From Candidatus Zixiibacteriota bacterium (GTDB lineage: Bacteria; Zixibacteria; MSB-5A5; CAIYYT01), in assembly GCA_020853795.1 (NCBI GenBank), contig JADYYF010000109.1, positions 1-64,000 of the forward strand: a stretch of 64,000 nt of DNA, read 5' to 3'. Below, piece by piece: positions 31,106 through 38,818 of this stretch (the stretch's first letter is position 1; each line of letters starts with the position of its first letter). The notes under the pieces are model-generated. The model saw nothing but the letters and a program-made list of their open reading frames with translations. It was not told the DNA's origin and did no database searches. The position numbers were made by a program, and so were the translations under genes.

Positions 31106-31663
31106 TTAAGAGAAGTCCACCTTCGGCGTCTTGCGTTCGGCCGCGTCCTCCACCTGGAAGAACTCGCTGGCCTGGAAATTAAACATGCCGGCAATGATGT
31201 TCGAGGGGAACATCTGCGTCTTGTTATTGTAGGTCATCACCGCATCGTTATATGCCTGCCGGCTGAAAGCGATTTTGTTTTCCGTCGACGTCAACTCCTC
31301 CTGCAACGCGAGAAAGTTCTGGTTGGCTTTCAGGTCGGGATAATTCTCGACCACCAGCATAAACTTGCTGATCGCTCCGCTCAGAGCGCTTTCAGCCTGT
31401 GCCTTCTCGCCAACGGTCCCGGCGCCCATCGCGCGGCTGCGGGCGTCGGTAATCGCCTGCAGCGTTTCGCGCTCATGCTTCATGTATCCTTTGGCCGTTT
31501 CCACCAGATTGGGGATCAGATCGTGGCGCCGTTTCAACTGCACATCAATCTGCGACCAGGCATTCTTGACCGCATTGCGCAGTCCGACCAGGCCGTTGTA
31601 CATCCCGACCAGCCAGACCACGATCACAACGATGAGACCGACCAACACTAAGAACCCGAGCAT
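31106..31663 (-). CDS. lemA: LemA family protein
   Basis: Encodes 185 residues. One N-terminal membrane helix (about 4-22), then the LemA core: NAWSQIDVQLKRRHDLIPNLVET, ENYPDLKANQNFLALQEELTSTENKI, and a Tyr/Asn-rich segment before MFPSNIIAGMFNF. LemA proteins are helical bundles outside the inner membrane, often encoded with M48 proteases as here. Exact role unknown. Confidence 0.94.
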   Translation of the reverse strand: MLGFLVLVGLIVVIVVWLVGMYNGLVGLRNAVKNAWSQIDVQLKRRHDLIPNLVETAKGYMKHERETLQAITDARSRAMGAGTVGEKAQAESALSGAISKFMLVVENYPDLKANQNFLALQEELTSTENKIAFSRQAYNDAVMTYNNKTQMFPSNIIAGMFNFQASEFFQVEDAAERKTPKVDFS

Positions 31664-31742
31664 TGTCGCTTCCTTTCTCGTCCTCTGTGTCTTAACACAA
31701 TTTTAACATTCAACTAATCAGACCGATAATCTTGCGCTCGTA

Positions 31743-32302: not shown

Positions 32303-33613
32303 ATGCAGCGAACAAGAACATTCGTTTTCGTTATCGTCCTTATGATGGCTGTCGGCGCCACGCTTCGCGCCGCGACCGCGGAGGACAGTCTCAAAGCCGG
32401 GCAACAGGAACTCAAAGAGCGCGTGGACGGTATGGCCGAGACGATGGCCGTCATGTCTACCGATGTCGGCATTCTCAAGAAACTCAAAGTCTCCGGCTAC
32501 GTCCAGGCGCGCTTTGAGTACAACGACTCTTCCCGCTCCGGTGTCGCGGGCGGTTATGATGCCACCAAGAATCTCAATGCCAACAATTTCTACATCCGTC
32601 GCGGCCGCGTCAAATTCACCTTTCAACCCAGCGACTGGAGCAAATACGTCATCTACTTTGACGGCTCGCGCAATACGATTTCGATGAAGGAAGCCTACAT
32701 CGAGTTGACCAAGCTCCATCGCGAACACAACTTCCAGTTGACCGTCGGCCAATTTAACTACCCCTTCGGCTACGAGATCGAACTTTCCTCGTCGGTCCGT
32801 GACTTCCCCGAGCGCAGCCTCGCGGAGAATCGGCTCTTCCGCGGCGAGCGTGACCGCGGTGTCAACTTCGCCTGGACTGCACCGCGCCGCTTGTCGGCGA
32901 ATATCGGACTCGTCCAGGGTTACGGCATCGAGAACTCAACTTTCACCTGGTTTGACCCGACCAAACAGAAGGATCTGATCGGGCGGGTCAAGGCCAGCTT
33001 CGGTCGGGTTGATGTTGGCGTTTCCGGTTATTGGGGCGAGACCTACACACCCGGATCGGCACCGGTCGCGGAAGTTCCCGGCCGCACGGTCTGGTACGAC
33101 GCCAACGGCAATGGCACGATCGACGCCGGCGAAATCACTACCACTCCACCGGTAGCCGCCAAAGCCGCAACCGCCGCCGTCGAAAAAGACAAGATTCGTT
33201 ACGGGCTGGATGCGCAGACTTACTTCGAAATCCTGCCGATCGGCGGATCGAGCGCGCGGGCCGAGTTCTACTATGCCGAAGATTACGCCAGCGGCGCCGC
33301 CGACCTGTCTGCCGTGAGCAAGGGCTGGTATCTCTGGCTGTCGCAGAGTATCGGTACCAAGTTTGGCGCCGCGGTGCGTTACGACTTCTTTGATCCGAAC
33401 GTTCACAACGACTACAAGAGCCTGACGCCGGCCAATATCAACGATGCCGTCGGCACGCTCTCAATGGTGTTGCACTACTACTGGGACGGCAATGTCCGCA
33501 TCTCCGCCGCGTACGATATGCCGCGGACGCTCAAGGACGGCTCGCTCTTCTCCAAGTCTGACGGCGACGTCAAGGACAACCGATTCACCCTGCAGTTTCA
33601 GTTCGCGATTTAG
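32303..33613 (+). CDS. Outer-membrane porin, phosphate-selective (OprO/P-like) family
   Basis: Encodes 436 residues from the ATG at 32303, with GGAGG upstream. A signal peptide (about 1-27) is followed by a short coiled coil (EDSLKAGQQELKERVD) and then a 16-stranded-barrel-type sequence: alternating aromatic strands (SGYVQARFEYND, YIRRGRVKFTF), loops with FNYPFGYEIELSSS, ending in FTLQFQFAI with a terminal hydrophobic residue. The first part is typical of the porin O/P family. A PstS-like binding protein is encoded 15 bases downstream, which supports uptake of phosphate or a similar anion. Confidence 0.87.
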   Translation: MQRTRTFVFVIVLMMAVGATLRAATAEDSLKAGQQELKERVDGMAETMAVMSTDVGILKKLKVSGYVQARFEYNDSSRSGVAGGYDATKNLNANNFYIRRGRVKFTFQPSDWSKYVIYFDGSRNTISMKEAYIELTKLHREHNFQLTVGQFNYPFGYEIELSSSVRDFPERSLAENRLFRGERDRGVNFAWTAPRRLSANIGLVQGYGIENSTFTWFDPTKQKDLIGRVKASFGRVDVGVSGYWGETYTPGSAPVAEVPGRTVWYDANGNGTIDAGEITTTPPVAAKAATAAVEKDKIRYGLDAQTYFEILPIGGSSARAEFYYAEDYASGAADLSAVSKGWYLWLSQSIGTKFGAAVRYDFFDPNVHNDYKSLTPANINDAVGTLSMVLHYYWDGNVRISAAYDMPRTLKDGSLFSKSDGDVKDNRFTLQFQFAI

Positions 33614-33628
33614 GAAAGGACAAACGAT

Positions 33629-34474
33629 ATGCATAACCTGAATTCATTCGGCAAGATTATCATCCTCACGCTCGGAATCGTCGCGCTCTTTGCCGCCATG
33701 GCCGGCGCCGGAGAACGCCTTACCGTCAAAGGTTCCGACACGATGGTCATTCTCGGACAGCGCTGGGCCGAGGCCTTCATGGCCAGTCACCCGGAAACCG
33801 TAGTCCAGGTCACAGGCGGCGGCTCGGGTGTCGGCTTCGCCGCGCTCATCAACGGCACCACCGACATCTGCGAAGCCTCACGGCCGATCAAGCCGAAAGA
33901 GCAGCAGAGTCTGAAGAGCCGGTTCAACACCACCGGCGTCGAAATCCCGGTGGCCCGCGATGGACTGACCGTCTACTTGAACGAAGCCAATCCGGTTAGC
34001 GAACTGACTATCAAGCAACTGGCCGCCGTCTACTCCGGTGAAATCACCAACTGGAAGGAACTCGGCGGCGAGGATGCGCGCATCATCGTCTACGGCCGCG
34101 AGAACAGCTCCGGCACTTACGTCTACTTCAAGGACGAGGTCCTCAAGGGTGAGGACTTCGCGCCGCAAGTCCAGACTCTTCCCGGCACGGCAGCCATCGT
34201 CAACGCGGTCGCCAAGGACAAGAACGGCATCGGCTATGGCGGCGCCGCCTATGCCAAGGGCGTCAAGTATTGCGCCCTCAAAGCTGACGCGCAGTCGCCG
34301 GCGTTCAAGCCTGATCTCGAACATGTCAAGAGTGGCGCCTATCCGCTGTCGCGCTATCTGTTCTGGTATCTGCGCAACAAGCCGAGCGGCGATATGAAAA
34401 CTTTCGTCGACTTCGTTCTCTCCGCCGAAGGTCAGAAGATCGTCTCGGAAGTCGGCTACTTCCCGGTTCAATAA
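33629..34474 (+). CDS. Phosphate-type ABC transporter substrate-binding protein (PstS-like)
   Basis: Encodes 281 residues with AGGAAAGG upstream. Signal peptide to about residue 27. The family signature is complete: LTVKGSDTMVILGQRWAEAF, VTGGGSGVGFAALINGTTDICEASRP, KQLAAVYSGEITNWKELGG, IIVYGRENSSGTYVYFKDEVL, and YPLSRYLFWYLRN near the end. The Ser/Thr/Gly loops are the anion-binding positions of PstS. No pstC, pstA, pstB or phoU is in the window, so its membrane partner is elsewhere, or it serves a sensory role with the kinase at 37175. Confidence 0.92.
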   Translation: MHNLNSFGKIIILTLGIVALFAAMAGAGERLTVKGSDTMVILGQRWAEAFMASHPETVVQVTGGGSGVGFAALINGTTDICEASRPIKPKEQQSLKSRFNTTGVEIPVARDGLTVYLNEANPVSELTIKQLAAVYSGEITNWKELGGEDARIIVYGRENSSGTYVYFKDEVLKGEDFAPQVQTLPGTAAIVNAVAKDKNGIGYGGAAYAKGVKYCALKADAQSPAFKPDLEHVKSGAYPLSRYLFWYLRNKPSGDMKTFVDFVLSAEGQKIVSEVGYFPVQ

Positions 34475-34499
34475 CCGTCCCTTATCCATTCCGCTGGTT

Positions 34500-34527
34500 C
34501 TTCCCGCGCTCGCAAGAGCGCGGGAAG
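34500..34527 (+). terminator. Strong hairpin after the pstS-like gene
   Basis: A 12-base-pair GC-rich stem (arms TTCCCGCGCTC and GAGCGCGGGAA) with a GCAA tetraloop, 25 bases past the stop. It lacks a clear U-tract (a short TTT follows), so it may end transcription inefficiently or protect the 3' end. Confidence 0.6.
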
Positions 34528-34547
34528 GCCTTTGCTCTTCAATTTGA

Positions 34548-34577
34548 TTGTGCGGCCACGCGCCCGCACTGTATAAT
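34548..34577 (+). promoter_or_regulatory. Promoter candidate for the lipoprotein gene
   Basis: TTGTGC, 18 bases, TATAAT (perfect -10), placed between the hairpin and the start at 34614; an AAGGGAGG ribosome site follows. It suggests the genes from 34614 on have their own transcript. Confidence 0.5.
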
Positions 34578-34613
34578 CACTCGTCGTCACGTCAAGCTGT
34601 AAGGGAGGAACTG

Positions 34614-35390
34614 ATGTCTGGTGCGCCTTTCCGAATTGCAATTCTGCTCCTGGCGGCTGTCGGGACGCTTCTGACTCTCTCGTGTTCCGGCGATGAGTGC
34701 ACCCTCAACTGCAACGGCGACTTGCGCTATCCGCTCGCGTTGGGTCTGAGTTGGCAGTACGACCTCACGCGTCAGAAATACAACTTCCGCCCATACTACG
34801 ATACCACCTTCTGGCATCCGGCCGATTCAATCATGCACTGGAATATTACTCTGTCGATCACTAACGTGGACACGATCGAGGCCGGCGTGGTCATCTATGA
34901 ATTCCACGAAGTTGTCACTGAAGCTACCACGCTCATCAGTCAAGCCTATAGCTGGTATGCAAACTCCGGCGACGGCTTCTGGCAATACCCTGATCTTGGT
35001 TCCGGCCCCGGACTTTCCGTATTCTCGCTCAAACCTGTCGCCGGCGCCGGCCCGAGCGCGACGCGCACCTATAAGGTCCTCGAGTATCCGCTGCGCGAAG
35101 GCATCCAATGGGAGCTAACCAACGGCTATTCTGACATCGGCCCAATCTACAAATCGGTCATCGGCATCGGCGAACAGTCTGTTCCCGCCGGCAAGTACGA
35201 TTGCTACGCGGTGGCCTGGCTTTGGGAGAGCATCAGCACCATCACTCGAACGCAATACTATTCCGATGTCGGCCTGGTCCGCAGCCGTACAGAGGTTAAA
35301 GACCTTTTCCATGATCCGTACGAAAACCAGGAATGGGCCGGCAGCTGGGATGAGACCGAAGAAATTCGACTCGTGCGCTCCCCGTTCTGA
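34614..35390 (+). CDS. Putative lipoprotein of unknown function
   Basis: Encodes 258 residues with a GGGAGG site. The N-terminus is a lipoprotein-like signal ending LTLSC, with Cys at about 24 as the likely lipidation site, followed by an odd Cys-rich start of the mature protein (GDECTLNCNG). The rest is beta-rich with many Tyr/Trp: YPLALGLSWQYDL near the start and VPAGKYDCYAVAW then YYSDVGLVRSRTEV near the end, a pattern seen in secreted proteins of this candidate-phylum type. No family assigned. It lies between the PstS-like gene and the second porin. Confidence 0.75.
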   Translation: MSGAPFRIAILLLAAVGTLLTLSCSGDECTLNCNGDLRYPLALGLSWQYDLTRQKYNFRPYYDTTFWHPADSIMHWNITLSITNVDTIEAGVVIYEFHEVVTEATTLISQAYSWYANSGDGFWQYPDLGSGPGLSVFSLKPVAGAGPSATRTYKVLEYPLREGIQWELTNGYSDIGPIYKSVIGIGEQSVPAGKYDCYAVAWLWESISTITRTQYYSDVGLVRSRTEVKDLFHDPYENQEWAGSWDETEEIRLVRSPF

Positions 35391-35471
35391 GCGAGGACTC
35401 GAATTTTCTGGCCTGCTCACGTTGAAAAATCCTTGCGCCAAGCTCCGCTTTCCCATAACCTTTACTAACTT

Positions 35472-36638
35472 ATGCTTAGTGTGCACTCACAGCTCTTACG
35501 GCTCGGATTGGGCATTTCGCTTCTGTTGCCGGCCGTCGCGCGGGCGCAGATCGGCGACTCCAACCTGCGGATGTTCGGGTATTTCCAAACCTCATACCTC
35601 CACGCGAAGGACGCCGAATCCGATCGGGTTCAGAAGTCTTTCAGCATGCAGCAACTTAACATGTTTCTCCAACGCGATCTCGGCAGTAAGGCGACCGCGT
35701 TTGCCAACTTTGAAGTCCTCAACAATTTCTCGTCGGGAAAGCAATGGGGATCTTTTTCGATTGAAGAGGCTTGGCTGCGCTGGCATTTTGATCCGCGCCT
35801 CAATCTTCGCGTAGGACTTCAAACGCCGACCTTTAACTACTTGAACGACATCAAGAATCGCACTCCGTTACTCGCGTATGTTATCCGACCATTAGTGTAT
35901 GAATCGTCGTTTAACGAAATCATCCGTGTCGAGGAATATCTGCCGGCACGCGCCTACATCCAGGCCTATGGATATATCCCCAAAGGCGTGGCCAAATTCG
36001 ATTACGCAGTTTATCTCGGCAACAGCCCCAACATCAATTCCAATCAGGAATACGGTCAGACTGGAGTTGATACCACCGCCAGCTTTCTGGTCGGCAGCCG
36101 CGTCGGGTTGCGCGCGGGCGAGTTCGGTCTCGGCGTTTCGGCGACCTACGATCGCTACGACTTCCCCAAAGAAATCAATTCGCTGATCGGCGAGGACAAA
36201 CAGAAATTCCTGCAAGTGCCGCGTGTTCGTCTCGGCGGCGATTTCCGCTATTCCCTGCGCAATTTCTCGTTGGAGAGCGAGTTTATCCGCGTCAATTACG
36301 ACGAAAACGACTCCGACCTCAGCGTCGATCTCCGCTTCTACTACGCGACGCTCTTCTATGAGCCGATCTCGGCATTGAAGCTCTATGCCAGCTACTGGTA
36401 TGTTAAGGAAGAGCAGTTCGGTTTCGAGGAGGAAATCGGCCTCAACGGCGCCTATCGGTCCTATTACGACGTCGACTACTTCTTCCGCGCCATCGGCGGC
36501 GGAGCGTCGCTGAATCTGGACGACAATATCGTGATCAAGCTGCAGGCGGCGCCGGTGCGTCAGGAGGTCGAGACCCCAACCATCCACAATGAGTCCGACC
36601 AATACTACTTTGCCATGGGACTTTCGGTGGTGTTATAA
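35472..36638 (+). CDS. Outer-membrane porin-like beta-barrel protein
   Basis: Encodes 388 residues. Signal peptide to about residue 25 (ARAQ). Repeated amphipathic strands follow (RMFGYFQTSYLHAK, FANFEVLNNFSSG, RVGLQTPTFNYLND, SLESEFIRVNYDE), ending in YYFAMGLSVVL, a barrel-type C-terminus. It is shorter than, and not obviously aligned with, the porin at 32303. The next gene encodes a miniature PstS-like protein starting one base after its stop, so this is a second porin plus binding-protein pair. Confidence 0.78.
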   Translation: MLSVHSQLLRLGLGISLLLPAVARAQIGDSNLRMFGYFQTSYLHAKDAESDRVQKSFSMQQLNMFLQRDLGSKATAFANFEVLNNFSSGKQWGSFSIEEAWLRWHFDPRLNLRVGLQTPTFNYLNDIKNRTPLLAYVIRPLVYESSFNEIIRVEEYLPARAYIQAYGYIPKGVAKFDYAVYLGNSPNINSNQEYGQTGVDTTASFLVGSRVGLRAGEFGLGVSATYDRYDFPKEINSLIGEDKQKFLQVPRVRLGGDFRYSLRNFSLESEFIRVNYDENDSDLSVDLRFYYATLFYEPISALKLYASYWYVKEEQFGFEEEIGLNGAYRSYYDVDYFFRAIGGGASLNLDDNIVIKLQAAPVRQEVETPTIHNESDQYYFAMGLSVVL

Positions 36639-36639
36639 G

Positions 36640-37119
36640 ATGACGCGACTTCGTTGGACAGGGAGGATTCTCGCCGCCGGCCTGGGGCTGGGCATCTTGC
36701 TGGCTTTGCTGGTCCCCCGCGCTTTCGCCGATTCCGTGGCAGTCATCGCCAACAAATCGGTGCCGGTGGATGCGGTTGACAAGATGCAACTACTCGATAT
36801 CTACTCCGGCGATTTGCGCAATTGGAGCAACGGCCGCCCAATCGTGGTCCACGACCTCAAGATCAACAACGAGACGAAAGAGCTGTTTTATCGCCATCTC
36901 GGCAAGACCCCGTCGCGCATGAAATCGCTTTGGCTCAAGAAACTTCTGTCCGGTGAAGGCGCTCCTCCGGAGGCGGTTGAGACCGAACACGAGATGATCG
37001 AGCGCGTCGCCAAGACTCCCGGCGCCATTGGTTTCATCTCGGTCGATTCGATCAACGACACCGTTAAGACCCTGGCCATTATCGAGTCCGACGAGAAAAA
37101 GAAGACTGCCGAGCGATGA
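36640..37119 (+). CDS. Miniature PstS-like phosphate-binding-fold protein
   Basis: Encodes 159 residues from the ATG at 36640, one base after the porin stop (TAAGATG). Signal peptide or anchor at about 9-31. The mature part, VAVIANKSVPVDAVDKMQLLDIYSGD with NWSNGRPIVVHDL, and the later TPGAIGFISVDSI match one lobe of the PBP-like (PstS) fold; the second lobe is missing. Such short proteins are found beside porins and sensor kinases and may sense or deliver anions. It is followed by the kinase at 37175. Confidence 0.78.
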   Translation: MTRLRWTGRILAAGLGLGILLALLVPRAFADSVAVIANKSVPVDAVDKMQLLDIYSGDLRNWSNGRPIVVHDLKINNETKELFYRHLGKTPSRMKSLWLKKLLSGEGAPPEAVETEHEMIERVAKTPGAIGFISVDSINDTVKTLAIIESDEKKKTAER

Positions 37120-37174
37120 GCACGGTTGACCGCCTCCCTGCCGGTGTCCGGCCGCCCGGATAGCCGCACTTTCG

Positions 37175-38818
37175 ATGCGATTCAGAGATCTCAAGATCGG
37201 CGCCAAACAGGCGATCGCCTTCGGCATCATCGCCGTCACGCTCGCGGGTGCCAACGCCATCTCGCTCAAGAACCTCGGCGACCTCAGCACGGACGTCGAA
37301 GAGATCACCCGCAGCTGGCTCCCGCGTGCACTGACGATTTCCGAACTCAATCTCTATGTCACCGATCTGCGCCAAAGCCAACTGCAAATCGCTGTCACCG
37401 AAGACTCCCTGACGCGCAGTCGCGAACTCCTCCAGGCTTCAGAACTCATTGACAAAATCGACGCCGCTATCGACAACTACGAGCGGCTGCGTGACGAGGC
37501 TGTCACCAAGGGCCTTTACTCTGAACGCGAACGCGCTTCTTATCAGCAATTCGGCGACAGTTGGGATCAATACCTCGATCTCAGTTTCGATTTTGCCAGT
37601 CTGGTGTTGACCGGCCGCCCCGGTTTCGGAGTCTCCTTGCTCAACGGCGAAATGCGCACCGTCTTCGAGCGACTGCGCGATGCGCTTCACGAGGTCGTCC
37701 GCATCAACACCGAGGATCCCTATGCGGCAGCCAAGCGCGCGGAGGAGGCCTTCCAGCGCGCCCGCCATGCCACCATCACGCTCTTGCTGCTGACTCTGGC
37801 CCTGGCGGTGCTGTTGGTGCTCGTTTTCGTCAAGCTGATCACAAAGCCGGTTAAGCTCCTCTCCAATGCCGCTGTCAAGGTGGCCGAGGGCGATCTCGAC
37901 ATTCGCATCGACCGAGTCAGCGGTGATGAAATCGGCCGGCTGGCTCATTCCTTCAACCGGATGACTAGTTCGCTGCGGGATGCCCGCGCCAAAACTGTCC
38001 AGCAAGAGGAGGCATTGCGCCGGCAGAATCTCGACCTGGAGATGACGCTGAAACAACTGCAGGAAACGCAACAGCAATTGGTAATGCGCGAGAAAATGGC
38101 TTCGTTGGGTCAACTGGTCGCCGGCGTCGCCCACGAGATCAACAACCCAGTGGGTGCCGTCAACTCTGCCGCCGACAACACCCGCCGCGCGATCACGCTC
38201 CTGCGCGAACGCGCAGCCCGCTTGCCGGAGGCCCAGACACTCCTCAACGATCCGCAGATTCACAAGGCGCTCGGCGCGCTTGACGAGAATACGGCAATCA
38301 CCACGATGGCCTCCGAGCGGATCTCGCGCATTGTCCGGAGCCTCAAGAGTTTTGCGCGGCTGGACGAGTCGGATTTCCAGAAGGCGCACGTCCACGATTG
38401 CCTGGACACTACCCTGACCCTGCTGCACCACGAACTCAAGAACCGCATCGAGGTCGTCCGCAACTACGGCGACCTGCCGGAAATCCTTTGCTTCCCGAAC
38501 GAACTCAACCAGGTCTTCATGAACCTGTTCGTCAATGCCGTTCAGGCGATTCGCGACAAGGGGCAGATCGTCGTCAGCACCTCGCGCGACCGTGACTCGA
38601 TTTACATCAAGATCACCGATTCCGGCAGCGGGATCCAGCCGCAACATCTTCCGCGTATCTTTGATCCCGGATTTACAACCAAAGGCGTCGGTGTCGGCAC
38701 CGGGCTTGGCCTGTCGATTTCCTATAACATCATCAAGAAGCACGACGGCGAAATCACCGTGGACAGTCAGGTCGGGCGCGGGACAACTTTTACCATCCGG
38801 CTGCCAATCCGGCTGTAG
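37175..38818 (+). CDS. Membrane sensor histidine kinase (4-helix sensor, HAMP, HisKA, HATPase)
   Basis: Encodes 547 residues. Membrane helices at about 12-29 and 198-219 enclose a helical periplasmic domain like the four-helix-bundle sensors of chemoreceptors. HAMP (220-275) is followed by a coiled coil (LEMTLKQLQETQQQL), the phosphoacceptor His320 in VAHEINNP, the N-box NQVFMNLFVNAVQAI, and ATPase motifs DSGSGI, FTTKGVGVGTGLGLSI. No response regulator is adjacent. The preceding porin and PBP-like genes suggest it monitors an anion; the start codon lacks a clear ribosome site, hinting at coupling or weak translation. Confidence 0.92.
   Translation: MRFRDLKIGAKQAIAFGIIAVTLAGANAISLKNLGDLSTDVEEITRSWLPRALTISELNLYVTDLRQSQLQIAVTEDSLTRSRELLQASELIDKIDAAIDNYERLRDEAVTKGLYSERERASYQQFGDSWDQYLDLSFDFASLVLTGRPGFGVSLLNGEMRTVFERLRDALHEVVRINTEDPYAAAKRAEEAFQRARHATITLLLLTLALAVLLVLVFVKLITKPVKLLSNAAVKVAEGDLDIRIDRVSGDEIGRLAHSFNRMTSSLRDARAKTVQQEEALRRQNLDLEMTLKQLQETQQQLVMREKMASLGQLVAGVAHEINNPVGAVNSAADNTRRAITLLRERAARLPEAQTLLNDPQIHKALGALDENTAITTMASERISRIVRSLKSFARLDESDFQKAHVHDCLDTTLTLLHHELKNRIEVVRNYGDLPEILCFPNELNQVFMNLFVNAVQAIRDKGQIVVSTSRDRDSIYIKITDSGSGIQPQHLPRIFDPGFTTKGVGVGTGLGLSISYNIIKKHDGEITVDSQVGRGTTFTIRLPIRL

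Follow-up and report, generated by a model that had tools for sequence, protein, structure and literature searches.

We analysed a stretch of 64,000 nucleotides (hereafter the window), which comprises bases 1-64000 of contig C109 in a genome of a Candidatus Zixiibacteriota bacterium (3.56 Mb, 215 contigs). Six genes follow one another on the plus strand of this DNA: a porin (porin A), a full-length phosphate-binding protein (PstS2), a lipoprotein, a second porin (porin B), a half-size PstS-like protein (here termed mini-PBP, for miniature periplasmic binding protein) and a sensor histidine kinase (Table 1). All six open reading frames (ORFs) were found in the order in which an earlier note on this DNA had named them. 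That note read the run as a single module; our comparison with other genomes showed that it consists of two neighbouring modules, namely (i) genes 1-2 (32303-34474), and (ii) genes 4-6 (35472-38818), with porin B, the mini-PBP and the kinase forming a conserved unit.

The gaps along the run measure, in order, 15, 139, 81, 1 and 55 bp. The lipoprotein is assigned to neither module and, among the neighbourhoods fetched, was seen at this locus elsewhere only in genome G003; its description as Cys-rich was overstated, as it contains four cysteines among 258 residues. The HisKA domain of the kinase scored below the cut-off (20.9 against 26.9 bits), although the H-box (AHEINNP) is nonetheless visible.

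Table 1. Features of the window discussed in the text (bit scores are from profile searches)
Feature	Position	Strand	Evidence	Assignment
lemA	31106-31663	-		
Candidate Pho box, TTAACA-n5-TTAACA (perfect)	31692-31708; to 31719 with a third, weaker half-site of the same 11-bp period	+		
Porin A	32303-33613	+	Porin_O_P 37.9 bits, cut-off 20.9 (Pfam)	Module 1, Pst-linked
PstS2, phosphate-binding protein of full size (two lobes; GRENSSGT site)	33629-34474	+	PBP_like_2 138 bits; TIGR02136 247 bits, cut-off 206.6	Module 1
Lipoprotein, lipobox LTLSC	34614-35390	+	DUF3108_like 16.5 bits, under cut-off	Between modules, in neither
Porin B	35472-36638	+	Porin_O_P 16.9 bits, under cut-off (20.9); predicted 16-strand barrel	Module 2
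Mini-PBP, signal peptide and PstS lobe II	36640-37119	+	PBP_like_2 36.5 bits, profile positions 91-198 of 267	Module 2
Sensor histidine kinase, periplasmic four-helix bundle	37175-38818	+	4HB_MCP_1, HAMP and HATPase_c over cut-off	Module 2

The genes of module 2 were traced through a comparison set of 132 genomes of the phylum, in which G003 was the only same-genus relative of the window genome among those searched. Strong matches to porin B (E<=2e-76), to the sensor domain of the kinase (E<=2e-21) and to close mini-PBPs (E<=2e-32) are held by the same eight genomes (G000, G003, G043, G050, G062, G063, G125 and G131) and by none of the others. The three genes are adjacent in all eight, the locus of G131 being split over two contig ends. 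The earlier note had singled out the placement of a half-size PstS-like protein beside a kinase with a four-helix bundle, and this emphasis proved well founded. The conserved gene pairing expected of sensors that depend on a solute-binding protein (SBP) was also found for the mini-PBP and the kinase.

When distant mini-PBPs are included, the phylum holds 19 of them in 18 genomes (the scan gave matches in 20 genomes, and G119 and G066 were dropped as carrying full PstS). A porin-like ORF lies directly upstream in 19/19 cases, the term being applied by length, position and last residue; some of these ORFs have no match to a Pfam porin family. Where enough contig is present (17 cases), the next gene downstream encodes a HAMP-containing sensor in 15; besides plain and hybrid kinases, there are chemoreceptors among these sensors. 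The alignment of the phylum mini-PBPs took in 16 of the 19. The gene at L034:2964-6371, downstream of a mini-PBP, encodes a protein of 1135 residues that combines a carbonic anhydrase domain with HAMP and the signalling domain of a chemoreceptor.

The AlphaFold2 model of the mini-PBP is a confident single domain (pLDDT 88.6). It matches PstS structures in Foldseek, and VIA-align superimposed it on 1twy_B over 109 residues at 1.7 A (Z 16.1). Because of this match and of the profile range covered in Pfam (Table 1), the modelled protein can be identified as the second lobe (lobe II) of a binding protein of class II. The two-lobe class II fold that characterizes PstS is not present, as only one lobe was aligned.

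The residues of this lobe set it further apart from PstS. The phosphate-site arginine is absent from all 94 mini-PBPs compared and present in 20/20 full PstS proteins, and the R...SG[TS] motif occurs in 0/94 of the former and in 19/20 of the latter. In E. coli PstS, the Arg and SGT residues of lobe II bind phosphate. The full PstS proteins were taken from the 19 of 30 loci that gave one on the strand read, together with that of contig C7 of the window genome, and possession of SGT was not required; the S, G and T columns shift in the alignment, and the Arg column and the motif search alone were used. Anion sensing by way of the mini-PBP, as proposed in the earlier note, is weakened by this loss.

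The mini-PBPs carry a signature of their own, W.K..F.G.G.PP, which occurs in 87/94 of them and in 0/20 full PstS, and three residues (F83, W98 and G105) are invariant across the 82 mini-PBPs aligned; W98, K100, G105, P109 and P110 count among the conserved positions. On account of this signature and these residues, the mini-PBPs are a family with constraints of its own, and represent neither functional PstS proteins nor PstS in decay. That the protein is a functionless, decaying fragment of PstS might be suggested by the single remaining lobe and the missing binding arginine; the coherence of the family, its confident fold and the conservation of its neighbours in several phyla make such decay extremely improbable. 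The name under which these proteins appear in databases, “phosphate ABC transporter substrate-binding protein”, is misleading, and unsafe as regards the known phosphate site, because the phosphate arginine is missing from every member compared.

Module 1 presents a different picture. PstS2 reaches the score of the curated PstS family, contains the GRENSSGT motif and keeps the phosphate-site arginine. Close homologues (at least 64% identity) are encoded in 14 other genomes of the phylum, and in 14/14 of these loci (L027, L164-L176) the gene immediately before it codes for a porin A homologue. The porin-PstS pair is followed by pst transporter genes in nine of these loci, sometimes past a second PstS; it is detached in three (L027, L171 and L172), and the contig ends after it in two. 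Three loci (L167, L169 and L174) have two tandem pstS genes heading one pst operon, the first being of the PstS2 type.

Judged by these homologues, porin A and PstS2 appear to be the detached head of a Pst operon and part of high-affinity phosphate uptake. The pair resembles the phoBR-porin-pstSCAB-phoU operons of the same phylum in that their porin and PstS are homologous to porin A and PstS2; it differs in being split from pstCAB and phoU, which are placed on contig C7 within a complete PhoB-PhoR-PstS-PstC-PstA-PstB-PhoU row whose pstS has no porin before it. Phosphate would enter the periplasm via porin A, be bound by PstS2 and presumably be passed to the PstCAB encoded on C7. The observation in the earlier note that no Pst permease, ATPase or PhoU accompanies the window genes is correct locally and does not extend to the genome. 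As the Pst system on C7 is complete, the missing permease is no sign of a transporter-free phosphate route.

A further difference between the modules concerns a direct repeat of TAAC spaced by 11 bp (approximately YTAACA-n5-YTAACA), which recurs 5' of phosphate genes in the phylum (L026:7172-7199, as well as L165, L166, L168-L173, L175-L177, L179, L181 and L182) and is present in two overlapping copies in the pstS promoter on C7. We call it a candidate Pho box because it resembles the TTAACA repeats of Bacillus PhoP. A scan for Pho boxes of the E. coli type gave scores no better than shuffles 5' of the window genes, and pointed to the TAAC repeat. The TAAC repeat was found upstream of porin A orthologues in 10/12 relatives and upstream of porin B in 0/8 loci (Fisher p 0.0007, with rows that are not independent and with the window and G003 among the eight porin B loci). 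Locus L167, in which the start of the porin is missing, was excluded from the count. Genome-wide, the pattern with at most one mismatch occurs 16 times against 45 for the reversed control, which is no enrichment, so its weight comes only from its position 5' of pst genes. The candidate element listed in Table 1 is the sole strict match within the window. It is located just 5' of the minus-strand lemA and approximately 580 bp before porin A, from which it is separated by a minus-strand zinc-ribbon gene.

These observations bear on the earlier reading, in which the six genes form one module for sensing an anion (phosphate) and the kinase is served by the two porins together with the two binding proteins. 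In favour of that reading, the six genes share a strand, and G003, the only relative from the same genus that was searched, has retained the block. Among the neighbourhoods fetched, however, the whole block is confined to the window genome and G003 (2/132), so that the two modules meet only in this genus. Moreover, porin A and PstS2 have their counterparts within pst operons in other genomes, the phosphate arginine has gone from every mini-PBP, and the candidate Pho boxes accompany the relatives of module 1 and not module 2. We consequently rejected the single six-gene module, which we regard as highly unlikely. Since the porin A-PstS2 pair stands at the head of the Pst operon elsewhere in the phylum, a role in serving the sensor is not obvious for it. 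The earlier note had named a lack of conserved gene order in relatives as grounds for rejecting its reading; such a lack was observed for the six-gene run and not for genes 4-6.

Mini-PBPs are not restricted to this phylum. When a collection of genomes at species level was scanned once, 351 relatives were confirmed and 79 loci returned, most of them from Alteromonadales and other Gammaproteobacteria, with further examples in Sulfurimonas, an Oxalobacteraceae metagenome-assembled genome (MAG) and a Planctomycetota MAG; five of the loci (L055-L059) represent genomes of the window's own phylum again. No relative was found among viral contigs, in which 12 pattern matches were obtained. In the 79 loci an ORF was called porin-like if it had 330-490 residues and an aromatic last residue, and sensors were recognized by motif patterns. 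A porin-like neighbour on the same strand accompanies 78/89 mini-PBP ORFs and 55/733 other ORFs; it lies directly upstream in 66 cases and directly downstream only in 12, and the gaps between porin and mini-PBP are mostly 5-15 bp. A gene for a chemoreceptor, a kinase or a GGDEF protein is found at most three genes away from 49/89 mini-PBP ORFs. The alignments made from this set comprised 81 of the 89 mini-PBPs plus that of the window, 60 chosen porins plus that of the window, and 37 of the 48 sensors (gammaproteobacterial chemoreceptors only). All 37 of these chemoreceptors have HAMP and MCP signalling domains, and any other Pfam family occurs in at most four.

Several loci have features of their own. 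Two nearby mini-PBP genes are present at L060, L063, L065, L067, L082, L090, L117 and L119, and at some of these loci both are accompanied by a separate porin-like ORF. In two plasmids from Betaproteobacteria the mini-PBP gene follows an unnamed ORF of porin size and is itself followed by an EAL gene, with an unannotated gap in between in one of the two. Plasmid records apply the phosphate transporter label mentioned above. A plasmid of Alteromonas macleodii carries a mini-PBP gene and a porin-sized ORF followed by Type IV CRISPR genes (csf; L047:7073-10348).

The predicted structure of porin B has 16 strands (pLDDT 78.3), and its score falls short of the Porin_O_P cut-off that marks the phosphate-selective porins O/P (Table 1). 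Among the 61 aligned porins, matches at E<=0.01 were to Porin_4 in 41 cases and to Porin_O_P in 10. The 50 Foldseek matches listed for porin B are general porins, including an anion-selective one, and ion selectivity cannot be read from the fold; none of these 50 bears the name OprP or OprO, which excludes nothing.

Known systems offer several points of comparison with module 2. In Pseudomonas aeruginosa, phosphate-loaded PstS binds the CtpL chemoreceptor 1:1, and CtpL's own domain does not bind the ligand (PMC4926252). SBPs stimulate kinases, chemoreceptors and cyclic di-GMP (c-di-GMP) enzymes, as stated in a review (PMC9602780), and AioXSR is presented in another paper as a three-component system (PMC4563254). 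In the YfiBNR system of P. aeruginosa, a periplasmic protein (YfiR) inhibits an inner-membrane signalling protein (YfiN), and the outer-membrane partner, YfiB, is a lipoprotein (PMC4655355, PMC4887326).

PstS-CtpL shares with module 2 the pairing of a PstS-type periplasmic protein with a membrane receptor, and module 2 homologues are often beside chemoreceptors. It differs in that its PstS is a phosphate-binding protein of full length that works for the Pst transporter as well, whereas the mini-PBP has one lobe without the phosphate arginine and is encoded beside a porin rather than a transporter. The likeness to AioXSR, and to other systems of an SBP and a kinase, is that a sensor kinase is dedicated to a binding protein in the periplasm. 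AioX, the binding protein of that system, differs from the mini-PBP in having two lobes, and it is not known to have a porin partner. YfiBNR likewise combines an outer-membrane protein, a small periplasmic protein and an inner-membrane signalling protein, with a lipoprotein (YfiB) in the place that porin B has here. No relation of the mini-PBP to YfiR was seen in a general Pfam scan at E<=1, which gave only PBP_like_2 and involved no direct comparison with YfiR. By analogy with these systems, module 2 is most likely a variant of SBP-linked sensing.

We favour, with moderate confidence, an explanation in which a Pst-type uptake pair stands next to a separate signalling unit whose mini-PBP acts as a periplasmic accessory that docks on or gates the kinase. 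The mini-PBP would be a secreted, one-lobe derivative of PstS without the phosphate arginine, and would most likely dock on the four-helix-bundle domain of the kinase and alter its output. The shift in output may be set by what porin B, as a putative gate, admits or by the occupancy of the mini-PBP. The general plan of the cassette would comprise a channel for entry, a lobe free in the periplasm, and a receptor that varies in its output and keeps a constant HAMP sensor layout; its logic may be that of an SBP-dependent receptor (PstS on CtpL) or that of YfiR, which regulates YfiN from the periplasm.

Several results weigh against this explanation. The most serious is that, in the 79 loci from the species-level collection, mini-PBPs are linked to a porin (78/89) more tightly than to a sensor (49/89), so that the mini-PBP may serve the porin first. 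In addition, the sensor domain of the kinase and those of chemoreceptors from Gammaproteobacteria are at best weakly alike (hhalign probability 62.6, E 7e-5), so that a docking surface shared between them is not supported, and no cognate response regulator was found near the kinase. As to module 1, neither porin A of the window nor that of G003 has a strict TAAC repeat within 250 bp (10/14 overall), and the Pho-box argument consequently depends on the relatives.

The first of these points is the basis of an alternative in which the mini-PBP works chiefly with the porin (as a plug on the periplasmic side, an adaptor or a folding aid) and the sensor reads the porin or a solute without touching the mini-PBP. 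Adjacency to a porin is indeed the most constant link of the mini-PBP, sensors being within three genes in just over half of the cases, and one plasmid copy (L048) has a porin while its surroundings, out to 5 kb, contain no annotated sensor gene. Such a role is opposed by the sensor found directly downstream in 15/17 assessable cases of the phylum, and by the fact that the sensor-domain family of the kinase was never strongly matched without a mini-PBP, and we consider it rather unlikely.

The favoured explanation could also take a ligand-carrying form, in which the mini-PBP binds an anion or another small ligand via a new site and presents it to the sensor, much as happens between PstS and CtpL. 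The folds closest to the mini-PBP are those of oxyanion binders, and it is the PstS loaded with phosphate that docks on CtpL (PMC4926252). A single lobe, however, cannot close round a ligand as PstS does, and the phosphate arginine is absent throughout (94/94); this form is a tentative one, of appreciable though low probability. A bolder proposal, which we hold to be distinctly unlikely, is that of a split binding-protein sensor. The lobe of the mini-PBP would provide half of a ligand site, and the helical bundle of the sensor or the periplasmic face of the porin the other half, so that a single free lobe would couple passage through the outer membrane to signalling at the inner membrane. The same cassette of porin, free lobe and HAMP receptor would then be used across phyla with kinase, chemotaxis and perhaps c-di-GMP outputs.

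To conclude, the half-size protein is widespread, the confirmed stretches of the single scan usually lying beside a porin and often beside a chemoreceptor or a kinase. The set of porin, mini-PBP and sensor is widely conserved and little studied; no description of such a cassette was found among the titles and opening parts of abstracts listed in searches of the open-licence PMC literature. The division of the six-gene run into two modules is a caution against treating gene neighbours as one pathway. Moreover, if the mini-PBP is a dedicated sensing lobe, the gammaproteobacterial chemoreceptors encoded beside it would gain both a candidate partner and a route of input.

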